Source of the DNA: Actinokineospora bangkokensis
Lineage (GTDB): Bacteria > Actinomycetota > Actinomycetes > Mycobacteriales > Pseudonocardiaceae
Direction of reading: 5' to 3'
Length of the DNA: 64,000 nt
Assembly (NCBI RefSeq): GCF_001940455.1
Contig: NZ_MKQR01000013.1
Span: forward strand, 62,001 to 126,000
The first letter of the stretch is position 1. Each line of letters begins with the position of its first letter. Below the pieces are notes generated by a model. The model was not told where the DNA came from and made no database searches. It saw nothing but the letters and a program-made list of their open reading frames with translations. Of the stretch, positions 25,088-62,022 are shown one piece after another. Position numbers and translations under genes: made by a program.

Positions 25088-26182
25088 TCACCCGGTCGCG
25101 AACTCCAGGACGTCGGGCAGCACGTCCCGCACCTCGACGTCGGCCACGAACGACACGTCGTGCGGGCAGCGGTCGACGTCCGGTCGCGTGCAGTCCACAC
25201 CGCACACCGGGCAGCGGGAGGTCCAGGAGATGTGGACGCGGTTGCGCAGCCGACCGGGCGACCCGGCGTTGATGACGTTGCCCATCCAGTAGACGGAGAC
25301 GGTGGGCGTCCCCACGGCCTCGGCCAGGTGCCGGGGCCCGCTGTCGTTGGCCAGCACCACGTCCGCGCGCGCGAGCACGCCCACGAGCGCGGACATGCTC
25401 AACCGGCCCGCCAGCGAGCGGATCCGGTCCGCCTGCCCGCCTGCGGTGGCCAACCGCACCACGTCGTCGGCCAGCGCCGCCTCCGACGCGTCACCGACGA
25501 CCAGGACGCACGCCCGCGCCGCGCACTCCGCGGCGACGCGGGCGAACCTCCCGGCGGGCCAACGCCTGCGCGGGTCGCTGGCCCCGGGGTGGATGACCAC
25601 CACGGGCAGCTCCGGTTCACCGATCACGCGCCGCGCCGCCGCCAGGTCGCCGGGGGTGATCGCCAGCTGCGGAACCAGTTGCACGGGCGGAGCGCCCGCG
25701 AGGCCCGCCACCTCCAGCCAGCGCATCACCTCGTGCTGGAAGTAGCGGAACGGGAGGTTGCGCTCCAGCGGTTCGGCGTCCGGGGTCCGGCCGCCCGCGG
25801 AGTGCCGCGGCCGCAAGGCGTTGATGAACGGGTTGGACCAGCGCCCGCCGCCGTGCAGCTGCACGGCCAGGTCGACCTGCCCCACGCGGCGCAGGTACTG
25901 GCGCGCGGCCTCGTGGTCGGTGCCCTCGCCCCGCGGGTCGTGGACGCCGTGCACCCGGGGCAGGGGCAGGACTTCGCGGACCGGTGACGGTCTGTCGAGG
26001 AGTTCGCGGTGCATTTCTGTACCCATCAGGGTGATTCGCGCGCCCGGGTAGGCACGCGCCAGGGCGTGCACGGCGGGCATGGCGAACAGCAGGTCGCCGA
26101 GTCCGCCGCCGCGCAGCACGGCGATGTGGGCGATGTCGGGGAAGGGCTCGGCCACCGGGCCGAGCGCGCACTCTGCCAGCAC
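25088..26182 (-). CDS. GT9 heptosyltransferase-like protein
   Basis: A 364-residue GT-B protein of family GT9, the ADP-heptose:LPS heptosyltransferase family. The N-terminus has VLRGGGLGDLLFAMPAV, and the C-terminal domain has VIHPGASDPRRRW and ANDSGPRHLAEAVGTP. A cysteine cluster near the end (CPVCGVDC...CPHD) may bind metal. It should transfer a heptose or similar sugar to an acceptor; there is no LPS in this kind of organism, so the acceptor is unknown. The GTG at 26182 lies 9 bp from a GTTT-N15-GGGTAG promoter. It diverges from the eight-gene heptose operon. Confidence 0.85.
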   Translation of the reverse strand: MLAECALGPVAEPFPDIAHIAVLRGGGLGDLLFAMPAVHALARAYPGARITLMGTEMHRELLDRPSPVREVLPLPRVHGVHDPRGEGTDHEAARQYLRRVGQVDLAVQLHGGGRWSNPFINALRPRHSAGGRTPDAEPLERNLPFRYFQHEVMRWLEVAGLAGAPPVQLVPQLAITPGDLAAARRVIGEPELPVVVIHPGASDPRRRWPAGRFARVAAECAARACVLVVGDASEAALADDVVRLATAGGQADRIRSLAGRLSMSALVGVLARADVVLANDSGPRHLAEAVGTPTVSVYWMGNVINAGSPGRLRNRVHISWTSRCPVCGVDCTRPDVDRCPHDVSFVADVEVRDVLPDVLEFATG

Positions 26183-26299: not shown

Positions 26300-27322
26300 A
26301 TGCGAACCCCGACCGGCCGCGTGCTCGTGGTCCGACTCGACAGCGACGGTGACGTGCTCACCGCCGGGCCTGCCGTGCGCGCCATCGCCGCGCACGCGGA
26401 GGTCGTCCTGCTGTGCGGCCCGGGCGGGGCGCAGGCGGCGCGGATGCTGCCCGGCGTGGACGACGTGGTGGTGTGGGAGTGCCCGTGGGTGGTGGCCACC
26501 CCTCCCCCGGTCGCCCAGGACGACCTCGACGACCTGGTGGCGCGGATCCGGCGCGCGGGGTGCGGGGAGGCCGTCGTGCTGACGTCGTTCCACCAGTCCC
26601 CGCTGCCGACCGCGCTGCTGCTCAGGATGGCGGGCGTCCAGCGGATCACCGGCGCCTCGGTGGACTACCCCGGGTCCTTGTTGGACGTTCGGGTACGGCC
26701 GGGCGTCGACTTCGACGAGGGGTGCGCCGAGCCGCTGCGCTCGCTGGCCATCGCCTCCGCGGCCGGGTACGCACCGTCCACAGCGGACGACACCGCGCTG
26801 CGCGTGCGGGGGGTCGTCCCCGCGGACATCGCGGGGCCCTACGTCGTGGTGCACCCCGGGTCGCTCGCGCCGTCGCGCACCTGCTCCCCGGGTCACTGGG
26901 CGTCGTTCGTGGCGCACCTGGCCCGTGCGGGGCACCGCGTCGTCGTGACCGGGTCCCCGGCCGAACGCGCGCTGACCCGGGAGGTGTCGGCGGGGCACGC
27001 GCTCGACCTGGGCGGCCGCACCACCTACGCCGAACTCGCCGGGGTGCTGGCGGGCGCGGAGGTCGTGGTGGTCGGCAACACCGGTCCGGCGCACCTGTCG
27101 GCCGCCGTGGGGACGCCGGTGGTGTCGCTGTTCTCCCCCGTCGTCCCGGCGAGCCGGTGGGCGCCGCACGGGGTGGCAACCGTCGTGCTCGGCGACCAGG
27201 AGGAGCGGTGCCGGGACACGCGCTCGCGGGAGTGCCCGATCCCCGGCCACCCCTGCCTCGACGGGGTGACCCCGGAGGTCGTGGCCGACGCCGTGCGGCT
27301 GCTGGCGGGGGTGGCGGTGTGA
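26300..27322 (+). CDS. GT9 heptosyltransferase-like protein
   Basis: A 340-residue GT9-family protein and first gene of an eight-gene operon. The N-terminus reads VLVVRLDSDGDVLTAGPAVRAI, and the donor-binding region has VVVHPGSLAPSRTCSP and VVGNTGPAHLSAAVGTP. It probably adds heptose made by the enzymes encoded downstream. The ATG at 26300 has no Shine-Dalgarno but lies 9 bp after a possible -10 box; an in-frame ATG at 26264 would overlap the -35 box and is less likely. The stop overlaps the next GTG by 4 bp. A second GT9 gene diverges from it. Confidence 0.83.
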   Translation: MRTPTGRVLVVRLDSDGDVLTAGPAVRAIAAHAEVVLLCGPGGAQAARMLPGVDDVVVWECPWVVATPPPVAQDDLDDLVARIRRAGCGEAVVLTSFHQSPLPTALLLRMAGVQRITGASVDYPGSLLDVRVRPGVDFDEGCAEPLRSLAIASAAGYAPSTADDTALRVRGVVPADIAGPYVVVHPGSLAPSRTCSPGHWASFVAHLARAGHRVVVTGSPAERALTREVSAGHALDLGGRTTYAELAGVLAGAEVVVVGNTGPAHLSAAVGTPVVSLFSPVVPASRWAPHGVATVVLGDQEERCRDTRSRECPIPGHPCLDGVTPEVVADAVRLLAGVAV

Positions 27323-28299
27323 GGGTCCTGCTCTGGCACGTCCACGGCGGCTGGACGGACGCCTTCGTCCGCGGCGAGCACGAGTACCTGCTGCCCACCG
27401 CCCCCGGCGGCGGCGCCTACGGGCTCGGGCGCGCCGGTCGCGACTGGCCCGGTAGCACCCGGGAGGTCCCGATCACCGGGCTGGCCGACCACCCGTTCGA
27501 CGTGGTGGTGTGCCAGCGGCCCGAGGAACTGCCGCTGGTGCAGGCGCTCACCGGCCGCACCCCGGGCGTCGACGTGCCCGCCGTGTTCGTCGAGCACAAC
27601 ACCCCCAAGCAGGACGTCCCCTGGTCGCGGCACCCGCTGGCCGACCGGCCGGACCTGCTGGTGGTGCACGTGACGCACTACAACGACGTGCTGTGGGACT
27701 GCGGCTCGACGCCGACCACCGTCGTCGAGCACGGCGTGGTCGACCCCGGCCACCTCTACACCGGTGAGCTCGACGCCGCCGCGGTGGTCGTCAACGAGCC
27801 GGTGCGCAGGCACCGCGTGGTGGGCACCGACCTGTTCCCCCGCTTCGCGCGGGCGGCGCCCCTCGACGTGTTCGGCATGGGCCAGGAGGGGCTGGCCGAG
27901 GCCACCGGGCTCGGCCAGGACCGGCTGCGCCTGTGCGGCGACCTGCCCACAGCCAAGCTGCACGCCGAACTGGCCCGGCGCCGGGTGTACGTGCACACCG
28001 CGCGCTGGACCTCGCTCGGGCTCTCGCTGCTGGAAGCCATGCACCTGGGGCTGCCGCCGGTCGTGCTGGGCAGCACCGAGGCGTGGCGGGCGGTGCCGCC
28101 CGGCGCGGGCATCACCTCCACCCGGGTGGCGGAGCTGGTGGCGGCCACCGCGGACCTGGTGGCCGACCCGGCCAGGGCGGCCGACCTCGGCGCCGCCGCC
28201 CGCGCCCACGCGCTCGCCCGGCACGGGCTGGCGTCCTTCCTCACGACGTGGGACGGGGTGCTGCGGCACGCCACCACGGGAACCGGAGGTGCACCGTGA
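27319..28299 (+). CDS. GT-B-fold glycosyltransferase-like protein
   Basis: A 326-residue protein with features of a glycosyltransferase: an N-terminal domain (VLLWHVHGGWTDAFVRG), a mid segment with VFVEHNTPKQDVPW and VTHYNDVLWDCG, and a C-terminal domain with YVHTARWTSLGLSLLEAMHLGLPPVVLG, which is a GT4-like donor-site pattern. Family assignment beyond GT-B is uncertain. The GTG overlaps the stop of the GT9 gene and its own stop overlaps the next gene, so it is part of the same coupled operon. It probably builds the same glycan. Confidence 0.75.
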   Translation: MRVLLWHVHGGWTDAFVRGEHEYLLPTAPGGGAYGLGRAGRDWPGSTREVPITGLADHPFDVVVCQRPEELPLVQALTGRTPGVDVPAVFVEHNTPKQDVPWSRHPLADRPDLLVVHVTHYNDVLWDCGSTPTTVVEHGVVDPGHLYTGELDAAAVVVNEPVRRHRVVGTDLFPRFARAAPLDVFGMGQEGLAEATGLGQDRLRLCGDLPTAKLHAELARRRVYVHTARWTSLGLSLLEAMHLGLPPVVLGSTEAWRAVPPGAGITSTRVAELVAATADLVADPARAADLGAAARAHALARHGLASFLTTWDGVLRHATTGTGGAP

Positions 28300-29546
28300 T
28301 CACCGACCAGGTCGTGCCCGCCAGCAGGCGCGGGGGCTCCAACCCGCTCACCGTCGCGCTCGTCAGCGAGCACGCGAGCCCCTTGGCCGCGCTCGGCGGT
28401 GTCGACGCCGGTGGGCAGAACGTCCACGTGGCCGAGTTGGCGGCGGCGCTGGCCCGCCGCGGGCACGAGGTCACCGTGCACACCCGGCGGGATTCCCCGG
28501 ACCTGCCCGCGGTCGTCGACACCGGCGCCGGGTACCGGGTGGTGCACGTGCCCGCCGGGCCCGCGGCGCCGCTGCCCAAGGACGACCTGCTGCCGCACAT
28601 GGGCGAGTTCGCCGCCCGGTTGGCCGAGCACTGGCGCGGTGAACCCCCCGACGTGGCCCACGGGCACTTCTGGATGTCCGGGCTGGCGGTGGTGGTGGCC
28701 GCGCGCGGCCTGCCCGTCGCGACGGTGCAGACCTTCCACGCGCTCGGGTCGGTCAAGCGCCGCCACCAGGGCCGCGCCGACACCAGCCCACCGCAGCGCG
28801 TCGAGGTGGAGCGGGTCGTGGCCACCGGGGTCGACCGCGTGCTGGCCACCTGCTCCGACGAGGTCGACGAGCTGGCCGCGATGGGCGTGCCGCGCGCCGC
28901 GACGGCCGTGGTGCCGTGCGGCATCGACCTGCGCCGGTTCACCCCGGACGGGCCGCGGGCGCCCAAGCCGCTGCGGCACCGGGTGGTGTGCGCGGGCAGG
29001 CTGGTGCCGCGCAAGGGGTTCGACACCGCGGTGGAGGCGATGGCCCTGCTCCCAGACGACACCGAGCTGGTGATCGCGGGGGGTGCCGGCGGCGAGCCCG
29101 AGGGCGAGCGGCTGCGCGCGGTCGCGGCGGCGCTGGGCGTGGCCGACCGGGTCCGGCTGCTGGGGGCGGTCGACCGCCACGAGGTGCCCGCGCTGCTGCG
29201 CTCGGCCGACGTCGTGGTGCACGCGCCCTGGTACGAGCCGTTCGGGCTGGTGCCGCTGGAGGCGATGGCCTGCGGCGTGCCCGTGGTGGGCGCGGCGGTC
29301 GGCGGCCTCAACGACACCGTGGTCGACGGCGTGACCGGGGTGCTGGTGGCGCCCAGGGCACCCGCGGCGCTGGCGGCGGCGGTGGGCGGGCTGCTCGCCG
29401 ACCCGCGGCGGCGCGCCGCGATGGGCCGCGCGGGCGCGGCCAGGGCCGCCCAGTACGGCTGGGACCGGGTGGCGGCCGGGACCGAGGAGCAGTACCGGGC
29501 GTGCGCGCGCACGTCCGCGGCGAGCGTGGTGGGAGGTGTCCGGTGA
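28296..29546 (+). CDS. GT4-family glycosyltransferase
   Basis: A 416-residue GT4 enzyme. The N-terminal domain has VALVSEHASPLAALGGVDAGGQNVHV, the Gly-rich nucleotide-sugar start seen in sucrose-phosphate-synthase-like and MshA-like GT4 enzymes. The C-terminal domain has the EX7E motif in EPFGLVPLEAMACGVPVV. GGAGGTGCACC precedes the GTG, which overlaps the previous stop (GTGA). It is third in the heptose operon and most similar to the GT4 proteins at 20758 and 40699. Donor sugar is not certain; retaining transfer is expected for GT4. Confidence 0.87.
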   Translation: MITDQVVPASRRGGSNPLTVALVSEHASPLAALGGVDAGGQNVHVAELAAALARRGHEVTVHTRRDSPDLPAVVDTGAGYRVVHVPAGPAAPLPKDDLLPHMGEFAARLAEHWRGEPPDVAHGHFWMSGLAVVVAARGLPVATVQTFHALGSVKRRHQGRADTSPPQRVEVERVVATGVDRVLATCSDEVDELAAMGVPRAATAVVPCGIDLRRFTPDGPRAPKPLRHRVVCAGRLVPRKGFDTAVEAMALLPDDTELVIAGGAGGEPEGERLRAVAAALGVADRVRLLGAVDRHEVPALLRSADVVVHAPWYEPFGLVPLEAMACGVPVVGAAVGGLNDTVVDGVTGVLVAPRAPAALAAAVGGLLADPRRRAAMGRAGAARAAQYGWDRVAAGTEEQYRACARTSAASVVGGVR

Positions 29547-30178
29547 CCGGTGCCCCGGTGAACAGGTTGTCCGAAGTGGTGACGGCGCTCAACGGCCTGC
29601 GCGGCAGCGCGGGCACGCTGACCCGGTGGGGCGCCCACCTGGCCGCCCGGCTGGACTCCGGCGGGCGGTTGCTGGCGGCAGGCAACGGCGGCTCGGCCGC
29701 CGAGGCCCAGCACCTGACCGCCGAGCTGGTGGGGCGCTTCGACCACGACCGCAGGCCGTTCTCGGCCATCGCGCTGCACGGCGACACCTCCAGCCTCACC
29801 GCGATCGGCAACGACTACGGCTACGCCGAGGTGTTCGCCAGGCAGGTGCGCGCCCACGCCCGCCCCGGCGACGTGCTGGTGCTGCTGTCGACCAGCGGCC
29901 GCAGCGAGAACCTGTTGCGCGCGGCCGACACAGCCCGCCAGGTCGGCGCGGTGACCTGGGCGCTGACCGGCCCCGGCCCGAACCCGCTGGCCGCGGCGGC
30001 CGACGAGGCGGTGTGCGTCTCCGGCGGCACCACCACCGTCCAGGAGGCCCACCTGGTGCTCGTGCACCTGCTGTGCGCGTCGTTCGAGCACGCGCTGGCC
30101 GAGCGGGACGCGGAGGCCCAGGCCGAGCGGGACGCGCGGCTGCCCGCGCAGCGGGTGCCCGGGGCGGTGGCGCGGTGA
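29543..30178 (+). CDS. gmhA: Sedoheptulose-7-phosphate isomerase-like SIS protein
   Basis: A 211-residue SIS-domain protein. It has the GmhA patterns AAGNGGSAAEAQHLTAEL, TAIGNDYGYAEVFARQV, LLSTSGRSENLL and the catalytic-type VQEAHLVLVHLL. GmhA converts sedoheptulose 7-phosphate to D-glycero-D-manno-heptose 7-phosphate, the first step of nucleotide-heptose synthesis. Its position right before an HldE-like gene strongly supports this role. Start and stop both overlap neighbours by 4 bp. A DnaA-initiator-associating (DiaA) role is less likely in this context. Confidence 0.85.
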   Translation: MTGAPVNRLSEVVTALNGLRGSAGTLTRWGAHLAARLDSGGRLLAAGNGGSAAEAQHLTAELVGRFDHDRRPFSAIALHGDTSSLTAIGNDYGYAEVFARQVRAHARPGDVLVLLSTSGRSENLLRAADTARQVGAVTWALTGPGPNPLAAAADEAVCVSGGTTTVQEAHLVLVHLLCASFEHALAERDAEAQAERDARLPAQRVPGAVAR

Positions 30179-31494
30179 GCCTGGTCGTGGTGGGTGACGG
30201 TCTGCTCGACGTCGACGTCGACGGGGAGAGCTCGCGGCTGTGCCCGGAGGCCCCGGCGCCGGTGGTGGACGTGCGCGGCGAGACCACCAGGGCGGGCGGG
30301 GCCGGGCTGGCCGCCGTGCTGGCCCGGCGCGCGGGCATCCCGGTGCGGCTGGTGTCGGCGGTGTCCGCCGACGCCGACGGCGACCGCCTGCGCGCCGCGT
30401 TGTCCGATGTGGACACCGTGCTGGGGCGGGCCGAGCGCACCCCGGTGAAGTCCCGGGTGTTGGTGCAGGGGCAGGTCGTCCTGCGCCTGGACCGGGGCTG
30501 CGACGGCGCCGCCCCGCTGGTCGCGGACGACATGCTCGACGCCGTGGCGGGCGCGGGCGCGGTGCTGGTGTCCGACTACGGGCGCGGGCTGGCCGCCGAC
30601 CCCCGGCTGCGGGCGCTGCTGGCCGACCTGGCCCGGCGCGTGCCCGTGGTATGGGACCCGCACCCGCGCGGCCCCGAGCCGGTGCCCGGGTGCGCCCTGG
30701 TGACCCCCAACGCCGACGAGGCGCGGGCGGCCACCGGCGAGCCCGCGCCCCGGGCCGCGGGCCTGCTGCGCGAGCGCTGGGCGGCGGGTGCGGTCGCGGT
30801 GACCACCGGGTCGCGCGGTGCCGTGCTCGACTCCGGCGAGGGCCCGGTGCCCGTCACCGCCCCCGCCATCACCGCGGGCGACACCTGCGGCGCGGGCGAC
30901 CGGTTCGCCGTCGCGGCGGCCGCGGCGCTGCTGCGCGGCGACGGCGTGGACGAGGCGGTGCGCGCGGCCGTCGACGCCGCCACCCGGTTCGTCGCCGCGG
31001 GCGCGGCGTCCGGCGACCGGGCCGAGGCCGCGGGCACCGCCGAGGCGGTCGTGGCCGCCGTGCGGGCGCGCGGCGGCACCGTCGTGGCCACCGGCGGCTG
31101 CTTCGACCTCGTGCACGCCGGGCACGTGCGCACCCTGGCCACCGCCAGGGCCATGGGCGACTGCCTGGTGGTGTGCCTGAACTCCGACGCGTCGGTGCGC
31201 AGGCTCAAGGGCCCCAGCAGGCCGCTGGTGCCCGAGCGCGACCGGGCGGAACTGCTGCGCGCGCTCGACGCGGTCGACGCGGTCGTGGTCTTCGACGAGG
31301 ACGACCCGCGCGCCGCGCTCGCCGCGCTGCGCCCCGACATCTGGGTCAAGGGGGGCGACTACTCCCCCGCCGACCTGGCCGAGACCGAGCTCATCACCGG
31401 TTGGGGCGGGCGGGTCGTGACGACCCCGCTGCTGCCCGACCGCTCCACCACGCGGCTGGCCGAGGCGCTGGCCGCCACCGGACACGGGAGTTGA
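30175..31494 (+). CDS. hldE: HldE-like heptose kinase/nucleotidyltransferase, copy 1
   Basis: A 439-residue two-domain protein. An N-terminal PfkB-type kinase (about 1-295) has GDGLLDVDVDG, PNADEA and TCGAGDRFA with the catalytic Asp. A C-terminal cytidylyltransferase-like domain (about 300-439) has GGCFDLVHAGHV, NSDASVRRLKG and VKGGDYSP. HldE phosphorylates heptose 7-phosphate at O1 and later adds AMP to heptose 1-phosphate. Here the kinase substrate motif reads RAGGAGLAAV rather than GGAANVA, so this kinase half may have changed specificity. A second, more canonical copy is at 33600 in the same operon. Confidence 0.85.
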   Translation: MSLVVVGDGLLDVDVDGESSRLCPEAPAPVVDVRGETTRAGGAGLAAVLARRAGIPVRLVSAVSADADGDRLRAALSDVDTVLGRAERTPVKSRVLVQGQVVLRLDRGCDGAAPLVADDMLDAVAGAGAVLVSDYGRGLAADPRLRALLADLARRVPVVWDPHPRGPEPVPGCALVTPNADEARAATGEPAPRAAGLLRERWAAGAVAVTTGSRGAVLDSGEGPVPVTAPAITAGDTCGAGDRFAVAAAAALLRGDGVDEAVRAAVDAATRFVAAGAASGDRAEAAGTAEAVVAAVRARGGTVVATGGCFDLVHAGHVRTLATARAMGDCLVVCLNSDASVRRLKGPSRPLVPERDRAELLRALDAVDAVVVFDEDDPRAALAALRPDIWVKGGDYSPADLAETELITGWGGRVVTTPLLPDRSTTRLAEALAATGHGS

Positions 31495-31495
31495 G

Positions 31496-32200
31496 ATGGC
31501 AGGACAGGACAGCACGCGCACCGGGCCGGGACGGGTCCTCATCAGCGGCGGGGCCTCCGGCCTCGGCGCGGCGGTGGCCACCAGGGTCACCGAGGCGGGC
31601 GGGCAGGCGCTCGTGCTCGACAAGCAGGCGCCCGCCGCGCCGGTCGCGGGGTTCCGCACCGTCGACGTCACCGACACCGACGAGGTCACCGCCGCGGTGC
31701 GGGAACTGGCCGCCGACGGGCTCGACGCGGTGGTCACCGCCGCGGGCACCGACGCCTGCGGCCCGCTCGGCGGGATCTCCGCGGCGGACTGGGAACGGGT
31801 CGTGCGGGTGAACCTGTTCGGCACCGCCGCCGTCGTGCGGGCCGCGCTGCCCGCCTTGGAGCGCTCGCACGGCCGGGTCGTCACCGTCGCCTCCACGCTC
31901 GGGCTGCGCCCGGCGGGCGACGCGACCGCCTACTGCGCCTCGAAGTTCGGCGTCGTCGGGTTCACCCGGGCGCTGGCGATGGAGACCGCGGGCCGGGTCG
32001 GGGTCACGCTGCTGGTGCCCGGCGGCATGCGCACACACTTCTTCGACGACCGGCCCGACCAGTACAAACCGCGCGACGACAGCGCGCTCAACGACCCGCT
32101 GCTGGTGGCCGACAGCGTCCTGCACGCGCTGGCCTCGCCCCCCGGCTGCGAGGTCAGGGAACTGCTCGTCTGCACCGACCTGGAGCCCTCATGGCCGTGA
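31496..32200 (+). CDS. Short-chain dehydrogenase/reductase
   Basis: A 234-residue classical SDR. The NAD(P) motif is SGGASGLGAAVA (about 17-28), the active site is YCASK with an upstream Ser (VASTLG), and VPGGMRTHFF follows. It is not an extended NAD-epimerase of the HldD type, so it does not obviously supply ADP-heptose 6-epimerisation. It may oxidise or reduce a sugar intermediate. The ATG is 1 bp after the HldE stop and its own end overlaps the aldehyde dehydrogenase gene by 10 bp. Confidence 0.85.
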   Translation: MAGQDSTRTGPGRVLISGGASGLGAAVATRVTEAGGQALVLDKQAPAAPVAGFRTVDVTDTDEVTAAVRELAADGLDAVVTAAGTDACGPLGGISAADWERVVRVNLFGTAAVVRAALPALERSHGRVVTVASTLGLRPAGDATAYCASKFGVVGFTRALAMETAGRVGVTLLVPGGMRTHFFDDRPDQYKPRDDSALNDPLLVADSVLHALASPPGCEVRELLVCTDLEPSWP

Positions 32201-33603
32201 CCGACACCCGCGACGACCTGAACGACGAACTGAGCGAGGACCTGAGCGACGGCCTGCGCGTCGACCCGCCCTTCGCCACCGCGGACGCGGCGCAGACCGG
32301 TGCCGCGGTGCGCCGGGCCCGCCGCGCGCAGGCGGGCTGGGCGGCGACCGACCCGGCCGAGCGCGGGCAGCTGCTGCACCGCCTCGCCGACGCCCTGGAG
32401 CGGCGCGCGCCGGAGCTGGCGCGGTGCAACCACGCCGACACACACCGCCCGCTGGGCGAGGCCGAGGCGTCGGTGCGGGCCGGGATCGGCACACTGCGCC
32501 AGTACGCCGAGCTGGGGCCGGTGCACCGCGGCCGCGCCCTGCAGGGCACCCGCGAGGCCGCCGACCTGATGGTGCACGAGCCGCGCGGCGTGGTGGTGGC
32601 CCTGACGCCGTGGAACGACCCGGTGCCCACCGCGTGCGGGTTGATCGGCGCCGCGCTCGTCACCGGGAACGCGGTGGTGCACAAGCCGAGCGAGCGCGCC
32701 GAGCGCACGGGCGCGCTGCTGGGCGCCCTGGCCGAGCAGGTGCTGCCGGAGGACGTGCTGCAAACCCTGTTCGGCGCGCAGGAGACCGGTGCGGCGCTGG
32801 CCGCCGACCCCGGGGTGGACGTGGTCGCGCACGTGGGCTCCACCGCCGCAGGTCGCTCGATCGCCGCCGCCACCGCGGCCACCGGCGCGAAGGCCCTGCT
32901 GGAGAACGGCGGCAACGACGCCATCATCATCGACGCCGACGTCGACCCGGTGTGGGCGGCCGAGCAGACCGCGCTGGGCGCGTTCGCCAACGCGGGCCAG
33001 ATCTGCACCTCCGTCGAGCGCGTCATCGTGCACGCCGACCTGGCGCCGGAGTTCCTGCCCGCCCTCGTGGCCGAGGCCGAGCGCTGGGCGGTCGAGCCCC
33101 GCGACGGGCAGCGCGCGCTGTGCCCGCTGGTCGACGAGCGGGCGCGCGCCGCCGTGCACCAGCGGGTGCGCGAGGCGGTGTCGGCGGGCGCGACGGCGGC
33201 CGCGGGCGGCTGGGTGCCCGACAGCGACCTGCCCTGGTACCCGGCGACCGTCCTGACCGGGTGCACCCCGACGATGCCCGTGGTGGCCGAGGAGGTGTTC
33301 GGGCCGGTGGCGCCCGTGCTGGTCGCGCCCGACTTCGGCAGCGCGCTCGGGCTGGCCCGCGCCGACCGCCACGGCCTGGCCGCCACCGTGCTCACCGGGT
33401 CGATGGCGCACGCGCAGCTGGCGTGGCGGTCCCTGCCGGTGGGCACGGTGAAGGTCAACGCGGTCTTCGGCGGCGCCCCGGGCGGGGCCGCGCAACCCCG
33501 CGGGGCCAGCGGCACCGGCTTCGGCTACGGCCCGGAACTGCTCGACGAGCTGACCACGACCAAGGTCGTGCACCTGCGCGCGCCGGGCCGGAGCGGGACG
33601 TGA
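32191..33603 (+). CDS. Aldehyde dehydrogenase family protein
   Basis: A 470-residue NAD(P)-dependent aldehyde dehydrogenase. The Rossmann part has TPWNDPVP and HVGSTAAGRSI. The catalytic Glu is in LLENGGNDAI and the catalytic Cys in NAGQICTSVERV. It oxidises an aldehyde to an acid. Placement between two HldE genes suggests a sugar- or lipid-derived aldehyde tied to the glycan pathway, but this is inference. The start overlaps the SDR by 10 bp, and its stop overlaps the second HldE gene by 4 bp. Confidence 0.87.
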   Translation: MAVTDTRDDLNDELSEDLSDGLRVDPPFATADAAQTGAAVRRARRAQAGWAATDPAERGQLLHRLADALERRAPELARCNHADTHRPLGEAEASVRAGIGTLRQYAELGPVHRGRALQGTREAADLMVHEPRGVVVALTPWNDPVPTACGLIGAALVTGNAVVHKPSERAERTGALLGALAEQVLPEDVLQTLFGAQETGAALAADPGVDVVAHVGSTAAGRSIAAATAATGAKALLENGGNDAIIIDADVDPVWAAEQTALGAFANAGQICTSVERVIVHADLAPEFLPALVAEAERWAVEPRDGQRALCPLVDERARAAVHQRVREAVSAGATAAAGGWVPDSDLPWYPATVLTGCTPTMPVVAEEVFGPVAPVLVAPDFGSALGLARADRHGLAATVLTGSMAHAQLAWRSLPVGTVKVNAVFGGAPGGAAQPRGASGTGFGYGPELLDELTTTKVVHLRAPGRSGT

Positions 33604-35045
33604 CCGGCAGGCGCGGCGGCCGGCTGCCCGAGCTGCCCTCGGTGCTGGCGGCCCGCGCGCCCCGGGTCGTGGTGGTCGGCGACGCCATCCTGGACGTGTG
33701 GCTGCACGGCGACGCCGACCGGCTGTGCCGGGAGGCGCCCGCCCCCGTCGTCTCGGTGCGGCACCGGACCGCCAGCCCCGGCGGCGCGGCCAACACGGCC
33801 GTGAACCTGGCCGCGCTCGGCGCCGACACGACCCTGGTGACCCCCATCGGGGACGACGCGGCGGGCGCGGAGCTGCGCGGGCTGCTGACCGCCGCCGGGG
33901 TCCGGGTGCGCGGGTGCGCGCGGGGGGCGCGCACGGTCGTCAAGCACCGGGTGCTGGCCGACGACCACCTGATGGTCCGCTACGACGAGGGCGAGGCGGA
34001 GCGCTGGGCGTGCCCGCCCGTCGCCGTCACCGACGCCCTCGTCGGCGCGGACGCGCTGGTCGTCTGCGACTACGGCCTGGGCGCCTGCGACGACCTGGTC
34101 GACCGGCTGCCCACGTGGCGCACGAGCCTGCCGCTGCTGGTGGTCGACGCCCACGACCCGGCCCGCTGGCGCGGCGCCCGGGCGGACGTGGTCACGCCCA
34201 ACGCGGGCGAGGTCGCCCGGCTGCTGGGCACCGACCTGCCCGCCGACCGGGTGGCGCACCTGACCGCCCGCGGCGGCGACGTGCTGGCCGCCGCGGGCGC
34301 GGGCGCCGTGGTGGCGACGCTGGACCGGGAGGGCGCGCTGGTGCTCACCCCCGGCGCCCGCCCGCACCGCACGTGGGCCGACCCGGCGCCGGAGACGCAG
34401 GCGTCCGGGGCGGGCGACACGTTCTGCGCCGCCCTCACCGCCGCGCTCGCCTGCGACGTCCCGCTGCCGCTGGCCGCGGAGCTGGCCCAGGCGGCCGCGG
34501 ACGTGGTGGTGCACCGGCCGGGCACCTCGGTGTGCGGCACCGCCGAACTGGTCGCCGCGCTCGGCGGGAACCGGGCCGTGCCGCTGGAGGCACTGGTGCC
34601 GGTGGTGGCGCGGGCGCGGGCGGGCGGGGCGCGGGTGGTGCTGACCAACGGCTGCTTCGACGTGCTGCACCGCGGCCACATCGCCTGCCTCACCGAGGCC
34701 AGGGCCATGGGCGACCTGCTGGTGGTGGGGGTCAACGACGACGCGTCGGTGCGGGCGCTCAAGGGCGGCGGCCGACCGGTGAACCCGCTGGCCGACCGGG
34801 TGGCGGTGCTGTCCGCGCTGAGCTGCGTCGACCACCTCGTCGCCTTCTCCGGCACCGACGCCCGCGCCCTGGTGTCGGCGCTGCGCCCGGACGTCTACGC
34901 CAAGGGCGGCGACCACAGCGCCGCGGACCTGCCCGAGGCCGCGGCGGTGCGGGCCGCGGGAGGGCAGGTGCGCATCGTCAACCGGTTGGCGGACGTGTCC
35001 ACCTCCGTCGTCCTCGACCGCATCACCGCCGCGCACCCCGCCTGA
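33600..35045 (+). CDS. hldE: HldE-like heptose kinase/nucleotidyltransferase, copy 2
   Basis: A 481-residue bifunctional HldE. The kinase domain (about 20-320) has GDAILDVWLHGDADR, the canonical PGGAANTAVNLAALGA, KHRVLADDHLMVRYD and SGAGDTF. The cytidylyltransferase domain (about 345-481) has TNGCFDVLHRGH, NDDASVRALKGGGRPVNP and YAKGGDHS. All expected motifs are present, so this copy could do both the kinase and the adenylyltransferase steps. It ends the eight-gene operon, which stops at a strong hairpin at 35062-35099. Two HldE proteins in one operon is unusual. Confidence 0.9.
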   Translation: MTGRRGGRLPELPSVLAARAPRVVVVGDAILDVWLHGDADRLCREAPAPVVSVRHRTASPGGAANTAVNLAALGADTTLVTPIGDDAAGAELRGLLTAAGVRVRGCARGARTVVKHRVLADDHLMVRYDEGEAERWACPPVAVTDALVGADALVVCDYGLGACDDLVDRLPTWRTSLPLLVVDAHDPARWRGARADVVTPNAGEVARLLGTDLPADRVAHLTARGGDVLAAAGAGAVVATLDREGALVLTPGARPHRTWADPAPETQASGAGDTFCAALTAALACDVPLPLAAELAQAAADVVVHRPGTSVCGTAELVAALGGNRAVPLEALVPVVARARAGGARVVLTNGCFDVLHRGHIACLTEARAMGDLLVVGVNDDASVRALKGGGRPVNPLADRVAVLSALSCVDHLVAFSGTDARALVSALRPDVYAKGGDHSAADLPEAAAVRAAGGQVRIVNRLADVSTSVVLDRITAAHPA

Positions 35046-35109: not shown

Positions 35110-36360
35110 TCAGCGCGTCGCGACCCGCTGATCGGGCACCGAGGACGCGGCCTCCCCCGCGACGAGGGTGAAGCGGCTGCGCGGGGTGGTCGGGATGCGG
35201 TCGAGCGGGATCTCCAGGTCTTGCTCCGGCACCTCGTAGCGGGCCGCGGCCAGCTTCTGCGCGATCGCGGACAGCACCGCGACCACCACGTCCTCCCCGG
35301 GGCAGCGGTGCCCGGTGCGCGGGTCGCCCGCCCCCTGCGGGATCAGCTCGTAGGCGCCGATGTGCCGGTCGAGGAAGCGGGTCGGGTCGAACGAGTACGG
35401 CTCGGGGAAGATCTCCGGGTCGTGGTTGTGCCCGTAGAGGTCGAGGATGACCATCGTCCCCTCGGGGATGCGCACCCCGTGGAACTCCGCGTCGCGGCTG
35501 GCCAACCCGCCCAGGAACGGGGCGAACGGGTAGAACCGGCGCACCTCGTGGGCGAAGGCCACCGCGTACGCCCGGTCGCGCTCCACCCGCCCGCGGTGCT
35601 GCGGTCACTGGTGCAGGGCGTGCGCGGCGAAGGTGGCGAAGTAGGCGATGGCCACGGTCGGCCGCACGACGTTCAGGATCTCCACCGCCGCCACGCGCGG
35701 GCTCAGCAGCGCGCCGTCGGCGTCGCGGTGGTGGGCGATGGCGTGCACCGCGGAGTCGGCGGGCACCTGCGTGCTGCCGTCGCGGATGGCCTTGACGACC
35801 CCGCCGAGCCGCTTCTCCTGCCGGGCGCGCGCCGCGCGGGCCTGGAAGTGGCGCGGCGACGGGGTGGCGAACCCGTCCACCATCGCGGCGAGGTCGTGGG
35901 CGGTGGGGGCGATGTCCTCCGGGCGCAGCGGCAGGCCGATCCAGCCGAAGACCGCGGCGGTGAGGATGCGGGCGGCCTCGTCGAACAGGGTCACCGGCTG
36001 CCCCGGCGTCCACACCCCGGCGACCCCGTCCCAGGTCCGCTCCACCCGCGCCACCAGGTCCGCGATGCCGTGGTGGTTCATCAGCAGGGACGTGAACAGG
36101 TGCTTGCGCCCGCGGTGGGCGGCCCCGTCGAGGGTGTGCACGGCGCCGTGGCCGAACAGCGTGCTCTTGACCGGCCCGGGCAGGGCGCCGTGCCGGTGGA
36201 CGTTGGCCTCGTCGTAGAAGAACCGGGCCGCCTCGACGCCGTGGATGCAGGTGGCCCGCTTGCCCATCAGCCGCGTGCGCAGCACCGGGGCGCCTTCGGC
36301 CCGCAGCCGGTCGGGCAGCCAGGCGTAACCCCGGGTCAGTACCGAAAGGGACTCGTCCAT
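35110..36360 (-). pseudogene. CYP152-like P450 peroxygenase interrupted by an in-frame TGA
   Basis: A full-length P450 frame of 417 codons broken by one TGA at 35605-35607, with no frameshift: both halves are in the same frame. The N-half (251 residues) ends FAAHALHQ just after NVVRPTVAIAYFATF, whose Arg-Pro pair is the CYP152 fatty-acid peroxygenase signature replacing the usual acid-alcohol pair. The C-half has HEVRRFYPFAPFLGG, and the heme ligand Cys is in GHRCPGED. The stop lies where relatives continue without a gap; a TGG-to-TGA change would explain it. A stress-type promoter 9 bp before the ATG is intact. It is either a recent pseudogene, a sequencing error or read through. Confidence 0.85.
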
Positions 36361-39094: not shown

Positions 39095-39607
39095 TCAGGA
39101 GAGGGCCAACCGCACCGCGTCGAGCAGCGAGCCCGCGACCCGCGGCGCCCGCTCCACCTCCTCGGGCAGGGTCACGGGGGTCGGCACCAGGATCGCCTGC
39201 GCGCCTGCGGCCTCGGCGGCGCCGACGTCCGCGGCGATGTCCCCGATGACGACGGCGTCGCGGGCGGGCACCCCGAGGTCCGCGCACGCGGACAGGACCA
39301 GGCCCGGTTCCGGCTTGCGGCAGGCGCACCCGGCCTCGGCCACGTGCGGGCAGTAGCGCCACGTGCCGAACCGGCCCAGCAGCTGGTCGACCCTGGCGTT
39401 GACCGCGCGCACGGCGTCGTGGGTGAGCAGCCCGCGGCCGATGCCCGACTGGTTGGACACCACGCCCGTCCGCACGCCGTGCAGGCGCACCTCGTCGAGG
39501 GCTTGACGGGCGCCCGGGACGAGGCGCACCCGCCGGGGATCGCCGTTGTAGGGCACGTCGTGGACCAGGGTCCCGTCGCGGTCGAACAGGATCGCGCGGA
39601 CTGCCAC
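39095..39607 (-). CDS. gmhB: GmhB-like heptose-bisphosphate phosphatase (HAD family)
   Basis: A 170-residue HAD phosphatase of the GmhB/HisB-N type. It has FDRDGTLV (catalytic Asp pair), SNQSGIGRG, the zinc loop CPHVAEAGCACRKPEPG and GDIAADVGAA. GmhB removes the C7 phosphate from heptose 1,7-bisphosphate between the two HldE steps, which completes the pathway encoded at 29543-35045. GAGGAGG precedes the GTG. It is downstream of a GT9 gene on the same strand, probably in one operon with it. Confidence 0.87.
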   Translation of the reverse strand: MAVRAILFDRDGTLVHDVPYNGDPRRVRLVPGARQALDEVRLHGVRTGVVSNQSGIGRGLLTHDAVRAVNARVDQLLGRFGTWRYCPHVAEAGCACRKPEPGLVLSACADLGVPARDAVVIGDIAADVGAAEAAGAQAILVPTPVTLPEEVERAPRVAGSLLDAVRLALS

Positions 39608-39692: not shown

Positions 39693-40592
39693 TCAGGGCA
39701 ACAGGTCGCGTGCCGCGGCCAGCACGTCCGCGGCGCCGACCCCGAGCAGCGCGGGGTCCGGGTCGTCGGCGAACGGGTCGCCGCGGCGGGCGTGGTCGGC
39801 GCTCAGGGCGATGTGCGGGCCGGGCGGCGGGCCCCACTCCCTGGTGCTGACCGGCCCGAACAGCACCACCGAGGGCGTGCGGTAGGCCGAGGCGAGGTGG
39901 GCCACGCCGGTGTCCCCGCAGATCACCAGCTCGGCGGCGGCGACGGTGGCGGCCAGCGCGGGCAGTTCCAGCGCCCCGCCGAGGTCGTCGGCACCGGACG
40001 CGGCGGCGACCCGCGCGGTCAGCGCGCGCTCCCCGGGCGAGCCGGTGATGGCGACCCGGTGGCCGCGGTCGCGCAGGACGCGGGCCACGGCGGCGAACCG
40101 GTCGGCGGGCCAGCGCTTGCTGCCGTACCCGGCACCCGGGTGCACCAGCACGGCGCCGGGGGCGGCGGGTGGCCAGTCGGGCACCGGCAGGTCCAGCTCG
40201 GCGGGGTCGGCGGGGATGCCGTGGGCGTCGAGCAGCCTGCACCACCGCTCCCGCTCGTGGATGCCGTCGAGCCAGCTCGGCCCCGACCACCCGTGGCCCG
40301 CGTGCCCGATCCGGCGCACCGGGTCCAGGGCGTCGAGGACCTGGTTGCTGCGCGGACCGGTGCCGTGCAGGTTGACCACGGCGCCGGCCCCGCGCAGCCG
40401 CTCGGGCAGGTCCACGAGCCCGTCGAGCGCCAGCACCTCGTCGACGCAGCCGGTGGCCGCCATCAGCGGCGCGGGCCGCAGCCCGCAGGCGAGCACCACC
40501 CGCTCGTCCGGGAACTGCCGCCGGAGCGCGCGCAGCGCGGGCACGGCGACCAGCAGGTCACCGAGGTTGAGGGAGCGCAGGACCACGATCAC
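39693..40592 (-). CDS. GT9 heptosyltransferase-like protein
   Basis: A 299-residue GT9 protein. It opens with VIVVLRSLNLGDLLVAVPAL. NLHGTGPRSNQVL, VLVHPGAGYGSKRWP and VICGDTGVAHLASAYRTP follow, with the donor-binding Asp-Thr-Gly typical of heptosyltransferases. It is the third GT9 gene in the window. The GTG at 40592 has no good Shine-Dalgarno but lies 10 bp after a perfect GTTT-N15-GGGTAG promoter, so it is probably leaderless. The gmhB-like gene follows downstream. It diverges from a GT4 gene. Confidence 0.85.
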   Translation of the reverse strand: MIVVLRSLNLGDLLVAVPALRALRRQFPDERVVLACGLRPAPLMAATGCVDEVLALDGLVDLPERLRGAGAVVNLHGTGPRSNQVLDALDPVRRIGHAGHGWSGPSWLDGIHERERWCRLLDAHGIPADPAELDLPVPDWPPAAPGAVLVHPGAGYGSKRWPADRFAAVARVLRDRGHRVAITGSPGERALTARVAAASGADDLGGALELPALAATVAAAELVICGDTGVAHLASAYRTPSVVLFGPVSTREWGPPPGPHIALSADHARRGDPFADDPDPALLGVGAADVLAAARDLLP

Positions 40593-40602
40593 GGGGGCTG
40601 CG

Positions 40603-40627
40603 CTACCCGGTGCTCCCCCCGGCAAAC
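40603..40627 (-). promoter_or_regulatory. SigB/SigF-type promoter of GT9-gmhB
   Basis: Minus strand GTTT, 15 bp, GGGTAG, a full match, 10 bp from the GTG. Confidence 0.7.
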
Positions 40628-40662
40628 GCCGCAGCACCGATCGGGGAGACCCACCGCAGGAG

Positions 40663-40687
40663 GTTTGATTCGACCCGAGGTGGGCAA
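40663..40687 (+). promoter_or_regulatory. SigB/SigF-type promoter of the GT4 gene
   Basis: GTTT, 15 bp, GGGCAA (one mismatch to GGGTAA), 11 bp before the ATG. The nearby AGGAGG is too far from any in-frame start to be a ribosome site. Confidence 0.5.
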
Positions 40688-40698
40688 AACCGTGCTGG

Positions 40699-61062: not shown

Positions 61063-62022
61063 GTGCACCCACCACAGCTGTCGCCGTCCACCGAGCCCGC
61101 GCCGGGCCCGCCGGACGAGCTCGACGCGTTGGCGTCGAAGAAGGTCGTGCCACTGCGCCACCCCTGGCGCTGGTTCGCCAGCGCGGTCGTGCTGGTGCTG
61201 CTGGCGCAGCTCGCGCACGCGCTCATCACCAACCCGGTGTTCCAGTGGGACGCCTTCGCCTACTGGTTCTTCCGGCCCGTCGTGCTGGAGGGGCTGCTGC
61301 TCACCCTGGAGCTGACCGGGTTGAGCGCGCTGTTCGGCCTGCTCGGCGGGATCGTGCTGGCGCTCATGCGGTTGTCGCGCAGCCCGCTGCTGCAAGCGGT
61401 GTCGTGGGCCTACGTCTGGGTGTTCCGGTCCATCCCGCTCATCGTGCTGCTGCTGTTCCTGGCCAACGTCACCGCGCTGTACAGCACGCTGAGCCTCGGC
61501 GTGCCGTTCGGGCCGTCGTTCGTGGAGTTCCGCGCCACGGACCTGCTGAGCTTCTTCGTCGTCGCCGTGCTGGGGCTGAGCCTCAACGAGGCCGCGTACG
61601 CCGCGGAGATCGTGCGCGCCGGGATCATCTCGGTCGACCAGGGGCAACTGGAGGCGGCCGCGGCGCTGGGGCTGCCCAAGTCGCGGCAGTACCGGCGGGT
61701 GATCCTGCCGCAGGCCACCCGCTCCATCATCCCGTCCTACGTCAACCAGCTGATCGGCCTGCTGAAGGGGACGTCGGTCGTCTACATCACCTCCCTGCTG
61801 GAGCTGTTCGGCGTCGTGCAGACGCAGGCGAGCACCAACAGCGGGCAGATCATCCCGCTGCTCGTGGTGGGCACCGTCTGGTACGTGATCCTCACCAGCG
61901 TGCTGTCGGTGGCGCAGTTCTACGTCGAGCGCCACTTCTCCCGGGGCGCGCTGCGCACGGTGCCGCCCACGCCCATCCAGCGCTTCCGCGGGAAGCTGCG
62001 CGCCCTGGGGGTGGCGCGATGA
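61063..62022 (+). CDS. Polar amino-acid ABC importer permease
   Basis: A 319-residue permease of the HisM/GlnP type with five or more transmembrane helices. There is a long cytoplasmic tail, then WFASAVVLVLLAQLAHALI. The coupling loop is QLEAAAALGLPKSRQYRRVILPQA. It is longer than usual at both ends. The GTG at 61063 is chosen for GGAG about 8 bp upstream. Its stop overlaps the ATPase gene (ATGA), and the binding protein follows, so the operon is permease, ATPase, binding protein. Confidence 0.9.
   Translation: MHPPQLSPSTEPAPGPPDELDALASKKVVPLRHPWRWFASAVVLVLLAQLAHALITNPVFQWDAFAYWFFRPVVLEGLLLTLELTGLSALFGLLGGIVLALMRLSRSPLLQAVSWAYVWVFRSIPLIVLLLFLANVTALYSTLSLGVPFGPSFVEFRATDLLSFFVVAVLGLSLNEAAYAAEIVRAGIISVDQGQLEAAAALGLPKSRQYRRVILPQATRSIIPSYVNQLIGLLKGTSVVYITSLLELFGVVQTQASTNSGQIIPLLVVGTVWYVILTSVLSVAQFYVERHFSRGALRTVPPTPIQRFRGKLRALGVAR

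Follow-up and report, generated by a model that had tools for sequence, protein, structure and literature searches.

Heptose pathways are known chiefly from lipopolysaccharide. Tang Y et al. (2022) reportedly described tridomain nucleoside diphosphate (NDP)-heptose synthetases in actinobacteria, in which an isomerase, a kinase and a nucleotidyltransferase (NT) are fused. In the available part of PMC11573728, such isomerase/kinase/NT enzymes are one of three heptose NT types; the same part states that studies on what the producers use these heptoses for are limited. Two Streptomyces species make ADP-heptose for septacidin and hygromycin B, according to an excerpt of PMC10221265. Here, we analysed a stretch of 64,000 nucleotides (hereafter the window) from contig NZ_MKQR01000013.1 of Actinokineospora bangkokensis, positions 62,001 to 126,000. 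Its source genome is 7.45 Mb in size with a high guanine-cytosine content. HldE is a bifunctional heptose-7-phosphate kinase/heptose-1-phosphate adenylyltransferase. The window carries two HldE-type proteins, HldE1 and HldE2, in one operon-like run, and a pair of this type was not found described in the open-licence literature. The sequence evidence suggests, with a probability of about 0.68, that HldE1 works as a bifunctional enzyme and represents the actinobacterial NDP-heptose synthetase in its split form, and that HldE2 is a separate, old accessory paralogue that is partly redundant with it.

HldE1 and HldE2 share 44% identity, and PF00294 and PF01467 match both, showing a PfkB kinase domain followed by a cytidylyltransferase-like domain. 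The catalytic motifs are kept in all four halves. The original prediction had pointed to an altered kinase motif in the first copy, and its coordinates and motif strings were exact: RAGGAGLAAV in HldE1 and PGGAANTAVNL in HldE2. GGAGL of HldE1 corresponds to GGAAN of HldE2, so that the acceptor-side GGxxN motif is kept in HldE2 and not in HldE1. The two genes and their motifs are as follows.

30175..31494, + strand: HldE1, with a Leu-type PfkB kinase half (about residues 1-282) and an NT half (about residues 289-439)
30289..30318, + strand: RAGGAGLAAV, the altered acceptor-side motif of HldE1 (residues 39-48), with the clade-signature Leu45 at 30307-30309
31429..31452, + strand: LLPDRSTT of HldE1, with Arg at position 5 of the (F/L)XXGRSTT motif published in PMC11573728 (partial text)
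33600..35045, + strand: HldE2, with an Asn-type PfkB kinase half and an NT half with unusually high divergence in this genome
33777..33809, + strand: PGGAANTAVNL, the canonical motif of HldE2 (residues 60-70)
34983..35006, + strand: RLADVSTS of HldE2, with Val at position 5, as in 1/70 HldE2-type NTs

The first copy had also been said to keep the GAGD motif and a normal NT half, and this was borne out: GAGD lies at residues 239-242 in the context DTCGAGD, and the NT half scored 181.8 bits, just above the TIGR02199 cut-off of 181.5 bits. The NT half of HldE2 scored 168.6 bits, below this cut-off. Both proteins were below the cut-offs of TIGR02198 (345 bits; HldE1 117, HldE2 180) and NF008454 (521; HldE1 248, HldE2 325). 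No third HldE-type protein was found in the source genome, giving a total of two. Like the Gram-negative HldE of the E. coli type, the window proteins show the kinase-NT order, GmhA and GmhB-like partners, NxxE and GAGD, and the NT motifs. Unlike it, HldE1 has Leu for Asn together with Asp14 and Trp160, both copies fall under the HldE equivalog cut-offs, and no HldD-type epimerase above the TIGR02197 cut-off was found in the source genome. HldD was rejected as an epimerase partner, since the best genome match lies on another contig and reached 126 bits where the cut-off is 274.6.

The motif column showed that the Asn/Leu difference goes beyond chance or error and separates the two types. Of 116 HldE1-type kinases, 115 had Leu and 1 had Met; of 41 HldE2-type kinases, 40 had Asn and 1 had Val; Asn was present in 20/20 canonical kinases. 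The full-length alignments had Leu in 111/111 HldE1-type rows. For the kinase tree, 177 rows were thinned to 117 at 80% identity (71 HldE1 representatives and 46 others), a set without L001 and L136, which are copies of the window, and without kinase stretches of <230 residues. The HldE1-type kinases formed one clade with a support of 100/100 and a stem branch of 1.21. A second clade (100/98) held 27 of the 28 HldE2-type representatives; the exception, L140, has a very long branch and was weakly placed. The nearest named relatives of the window HldE2 in this tree are Pseudonocardiaceae. HldE1 and HldE2 are two old paralogues.

The Asn of this motif contacts the sugar in ribokinases. Decay was rejected as the cause of its loss, because Leu is fixed across the HldE1 clade. 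The altered motif reported earlier is a real difference, but one that marks a conserved clade signature and not a lost kinase. Asp14 and Trp160 were present in 71/71 HldE1 representatives and 0/46 others. Pro162, Pro164 and Gly166 were also present in 71/71 and in part of the other 46, and Arg39 in 69/71. NxxE, GAGD, Thr210, K92, R94, R104 and D106 were kept in 71/71, and the window HldE1 showed 0 departures at the columns conserved in 95% or more of its family (46 in the kinase half, 51 in the NT half). We suggest that the change from Asn to Leu belongs, with Asp14, Trp160 and in most members Arg39, to a set of fixed changes that rebuilt the sugar (acceptor) side of the HldE1 pocket, that these other residues may compensate for it, and that the ATP side is largely unchanged.

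The predicted HldE1 model, based on a 33-row alignment, had a mean pLDDT of 90.9 and a pTM of 0.67, and its kinase fold was intact. The kinase half was closest to HldA 4e84 (Z 30.8, root-mean-square deviation 2.4, 276 aligned), and other ribokinase-family enzymes reached a Z of at most about 27. The HldC structure 5xf2 was also matched. A fold shared by the HldE1 model and HldA shows no function by itself.

Fusions of SIS, kinase and NT domains were located inside the HldE1 clade (100/100) in L097, L110 (Actinoplanes group) and L112 (Streptomyces plasmid pFRL5), with the Leu motif present. As the clade also holds these GmhA-kinase-NT fusions, the best reading of HldE1 is that of a split actinobacterial NDP-heptose synthetase. 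It resembles the tridomain enzymes in that the three fusions carry its type of kinase and in that GmhA adjoins HldE1; it differs in that the isomerase of the window is a separate gene with a 4-base overlap. The comparison covered the fusions of L097, L110 and L112. The L112 fusion (L112:7389-9350) lies in a plasmid stretch with radical SAM, P450, carbamoyltransferase, GT9 and epimerase genes, where a heptose-bearing natural product is possible.

Domain losses in relatives were complementary. Among the matches listed for 150 family genomes (G138, a partial match, was left out), full HldE1 was present in 78, full HldE2 in 34 and both in 30. HldE2 without HldE1 was observed in 2 genomes, and an HldE1-type kinase without its NT in 6. 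Full HldE1 without a full-length HldE2 match was observed in 48, some of which have weaker NT matches, e.g. G045 and G102; these 48 of 150 genomes agree with the earlier remark that duplicate enzymes are not needed for one pathway. HldE1 was the only strong kinase match and the only NT match in G055, G105, G108, G025 and G121, each of which has GmhA.

Four of the six kinase-alone genomes, G093, G147, G027 and G114, belong to one genus and carry GmhB, GT9b, GTx, GT4, GmhA, an HldE1-type kinase alone, a short-chain dehydrogenase/reductase (SDR) and an HldE2-type NT alone. Each has one TIGR02198-type kinase of 115-133 bits, with the next PfkB match at 60 bits at most, and one genome-wide TIGR02199 match at E 1e-10; no other HldE-type kinase or NT was found genome-wide in these four. 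Since TIGR02198 matched all 14 control genomes below its cut-off, it is the step from 115-133 to at most 60 bits that carries the argument, not the mere match. The lone NTs showed 51-56% identity to the window HldE2 and 44-47% to HldE1 (among the matches listed), and they were placed on the HldE2 side of the NT tree, for which 199 rows were thinned to 64. In G065, of the same genus, a full HldE2 accompanies a lone Leu-type kinase that has lost its NT; in G004, from a different genus, a kinase-only gene bearing the Leu motif likewise lies beside a full HldE2. All six genomes carry an HldE2-type NT, compared with 30/78 of the genomes with full HldE1 (Fisher test in the 150-genome sample, P 0.0048, a value that ignores kinship).

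These kinase-alone genomes make activity of the Leu-type kinase probable and indicate, as far as the gene content goes, that an HldE2-type NT can take the place of the HldE1 NT. If the HldE2 NT half stands in for that of HldE1, the two genes would be partly redundant and lineages would lose either half. An inactive or regulatory HldE1 kinase half, with the kinase step left to HldE2 and the NT step as the sole task of HldE1, would fit the replaced acceptor-side Asn and the low kinase score (117 of 345 bits). We consider it very unlikely, as NxxE and GAGD are fixed, the six genomes have kept precisely this kinase half and lost its NT, it is the only strong HldE-type kinase match in four of them, and the five checked genomes have HldE1 only. 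A split of the two steps between the copies had been proposed for the window itself, where it was not seen, all four halves having kept their catalytic motifs; it was seen in the four relatives that have only an HldE1-type kinase and only an HldE2-type NT. The gene losses thus suggest that the two HldE versions can share out the two chemical steps. In having a lone kinase and a lone NT, loci L186-L189 are similar to the HldA/HldC pairs of Burkholderia, with which the structural matches of the HldE1 model also agree, whereas their lone halves derive from two different paralogues.

The genes around HldE1 and HldE2 in the window are as follows.

25088..26182, - strand: GT9a, a divergent GT9 that often accompanies HldE2
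26312..27322, + strand: GT9b, a heptosyltransferase-family gene (start approximate)
27352..28299, + strand: GTx, a glycosyltransferase of group 1 (start approximate)
28302..29546, + strand: GT4 glycosyltransferase (start approximate)
29543..30178, + strand: GmhA-like sedoheptulose-7-phosphate isomerase; L097, L110 and L112 have a domain of this kind fused to the same kinase-NT
31496..32200, + strand: SDR of the classical short type, not HldD-like, directly 3′ of HldE1
32191..33603, + strand: aldehyde dehydrogenase (ALDH)
39095..39607, - strand: GmhB-like HAD phosphatase, a name based on similarity and gene neighbourhood (its Pfam matches are all HAD families)
39693..40688, - strand: GT9c, a heptosyltransferase-family gene (start approximate)

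GT9b, GTx, GT4, GmhA, HldE1, SDR, ALDH and HldE2 form the operon-like run on the + strand, with GT9a upstream of it and the GmhB-like gene and GT9c downstream, all three on the - strand. HldE1 begins with GTG, which overlaps the GmhA stop, and the HldE2 start overlaps the ALDH stop; both overlaps are 4 bases long.

Gene context was determined in the 71 of 80 named loci that are flanked by 8 kb or more on each side. Genes were labelled by their best matches to window proteins, so the glycosyltransferase subtypes are rough; the GT4 counts refer to the GT4b label, and the GT9c query carried an N-terminal overhang. SDR was present in 71/71 loci, directly downstream of HldE1 in 61, and GmhA was separate in 69 and fused in the other 2. 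GT9b and GT4 were each present in 70, GTx in 69, GmhB in 66, GT9c in 55, ALDH in 54, HldE2 in 35 and GT9a in 24. These loci are not independent, as relatives from Lentzea, Nocardia and Arthrobacter are numerous among them. The SDR is part of the HldE1 core, and ALDH occurs both with and without HldE2. HldE1 itself is the standard core enzyme of its cluster and is very probably active.

HldE2 was found to be detachable: six fetched loci lie apart from HldE1 in genomes that bear HldE1. A strong divergent GT9a was present in four of them (L181, L182, L183 and L185), and L183 also has ALDH. The core genes were absent from the six stretches, except for a weaker GmhA-like match in L181 and a weak GT9c-like match in L184. 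HldE2 and GT9a occurred together in 21 of the 72 named loci that extend 9 kb or more downstream; HldE2 was the only one of the two in 14, GT9a was the only one in 3, and 34 had neither. HldE2 would thus be carried as an accessory gene, often with GT9a and ALDH. In the HldE2-only genomes G010 (L179) and G021 (L180), GmhA was not found (no match at 1e-10, only weak SIS matches); L179 has ALDH, GT9a and a GmhB-like gene near HldE2. L192 (G157), from another family of the class, holds both HldE genes, GT9a-like matches, ALDH and core genes in one stretch. The HldE2 open frames of L040, L075 and L076 do not include the N-terminal region of the kinase domain, which may reflect a frameshift, a fault in the assembly or a genuine loss.

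The NT half of the window HldE2 (34590-35045) had a mean family identity of 0.53, the fourth lowest of 70 (median 0.67), and an end branch of 1.08 in the NT tree. Its divergence was also flagged by the 80%-conserved column list, and departures occurred at 0/49 columns conserved in at least 95%. The mean identities of both HldE1 halves and the HldE2 kinase were near the median.

The available part of PMC11573728 links the Arg of (F/L)XXGRSTT (STTR5) in heptose NTs to nucleoside triphosphate (NTP) promiscuity. At this site, LLPDRSTT of HldE1 has the Arg with Asp for Gly, and RLADVSTS of HldE2 has Val. The STTR5 Arg was present in 83/111 HldE1-type and 35/70 HldE2-type NTs, and STTR5 was rejected as a clade difference. 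As the Arg occurs in part of both families, it would predict an NTP difference for the window pair only.

That difference, together with the pocket residues that differ by clade, the GT9a-bearing HldE2 loci away from the core cluster (L181, L182, L183 and L185) and the absence of a GmhA match in G010 and G021, could mean that HldE1 and HldE2 make two different nucleotide sugars, differing in sugar or nucleotide, each for its own GT9. However, an HldE2-type NT appears to serve the HldE1 pathway in L186-type loci, the Arg does not separate the clades, and one GmhA was found in the source genome. We regard this explanation as rather unlikely, the more so as two of the six detached HldE2 loci are without GT9a; a second product of HldE2 is possible. 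A broader speculation, about which we are similarly doubtful, is that HldE2, GT9a and ALDH form a portable module for a second, undescribed nucleotide sugar whose substrate needs no GmhA, that the NT half of HldE2 is sufficiently broad to take over from its HldE1 counterpart, and that actinomycetes mix the kinase and NT halves of two old paralogues in one surface-sugar pathway.

Several observations weigh against HldE1 as a split-form NDP-heptose synthetase with a partly redundant HldE2. The NT branch that holds the lone NTs has a support of 87/97, below the tool's mark of 95. As five of the six kinase-alone genomes belong to one genus, the independent losses may number only two. GT9a is absent from 14/35 HldE2 loci and from two of the six detached ones (L184 and L191, which hold a more distant HldE2 type), and HldE2 without GmhA in G010 and G021 is unexplained by a plain heptose reading. 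Both proteins are far below the TIGR02198 cut-off and so may act on substrates other than heptose 7-phosphate. The donor half of the HldE1 clade is also not fully canonical, with Arg after GAGD in 65/71 and Val266 for the canonical Asn in 65/71.

This Arg directly after GAGD might be taken as a sign that HldE1 has switched its phosphate donor, e.g. to pyrophosphate, and the ribokinase family includes pyrophosphate-dependent members (PMC5931981, partial text). The known ones carry RXGRGD, and the same partial text gives GAGD with a small second residue as the ATP-type form. HldE1 has DTCGAGD, with the small Ala in 71/71, and NxxE; RXGRGD was not found in it, and the pyrophosphate donor was rejected as extremely improbable.

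A heptose-type cluster is conserved in many actinomycetes together with a kinase whose sugar side appears rebuilt. The natural domain swaps between the two paralogues would offer a direct route to what sets sugar and nucleotide choice in the family. Next to HldE2, a cytochrome P450 gene on the - strand (35110-36360) is broken by an in-frame TGA, and its 3′ part matches PF00067.

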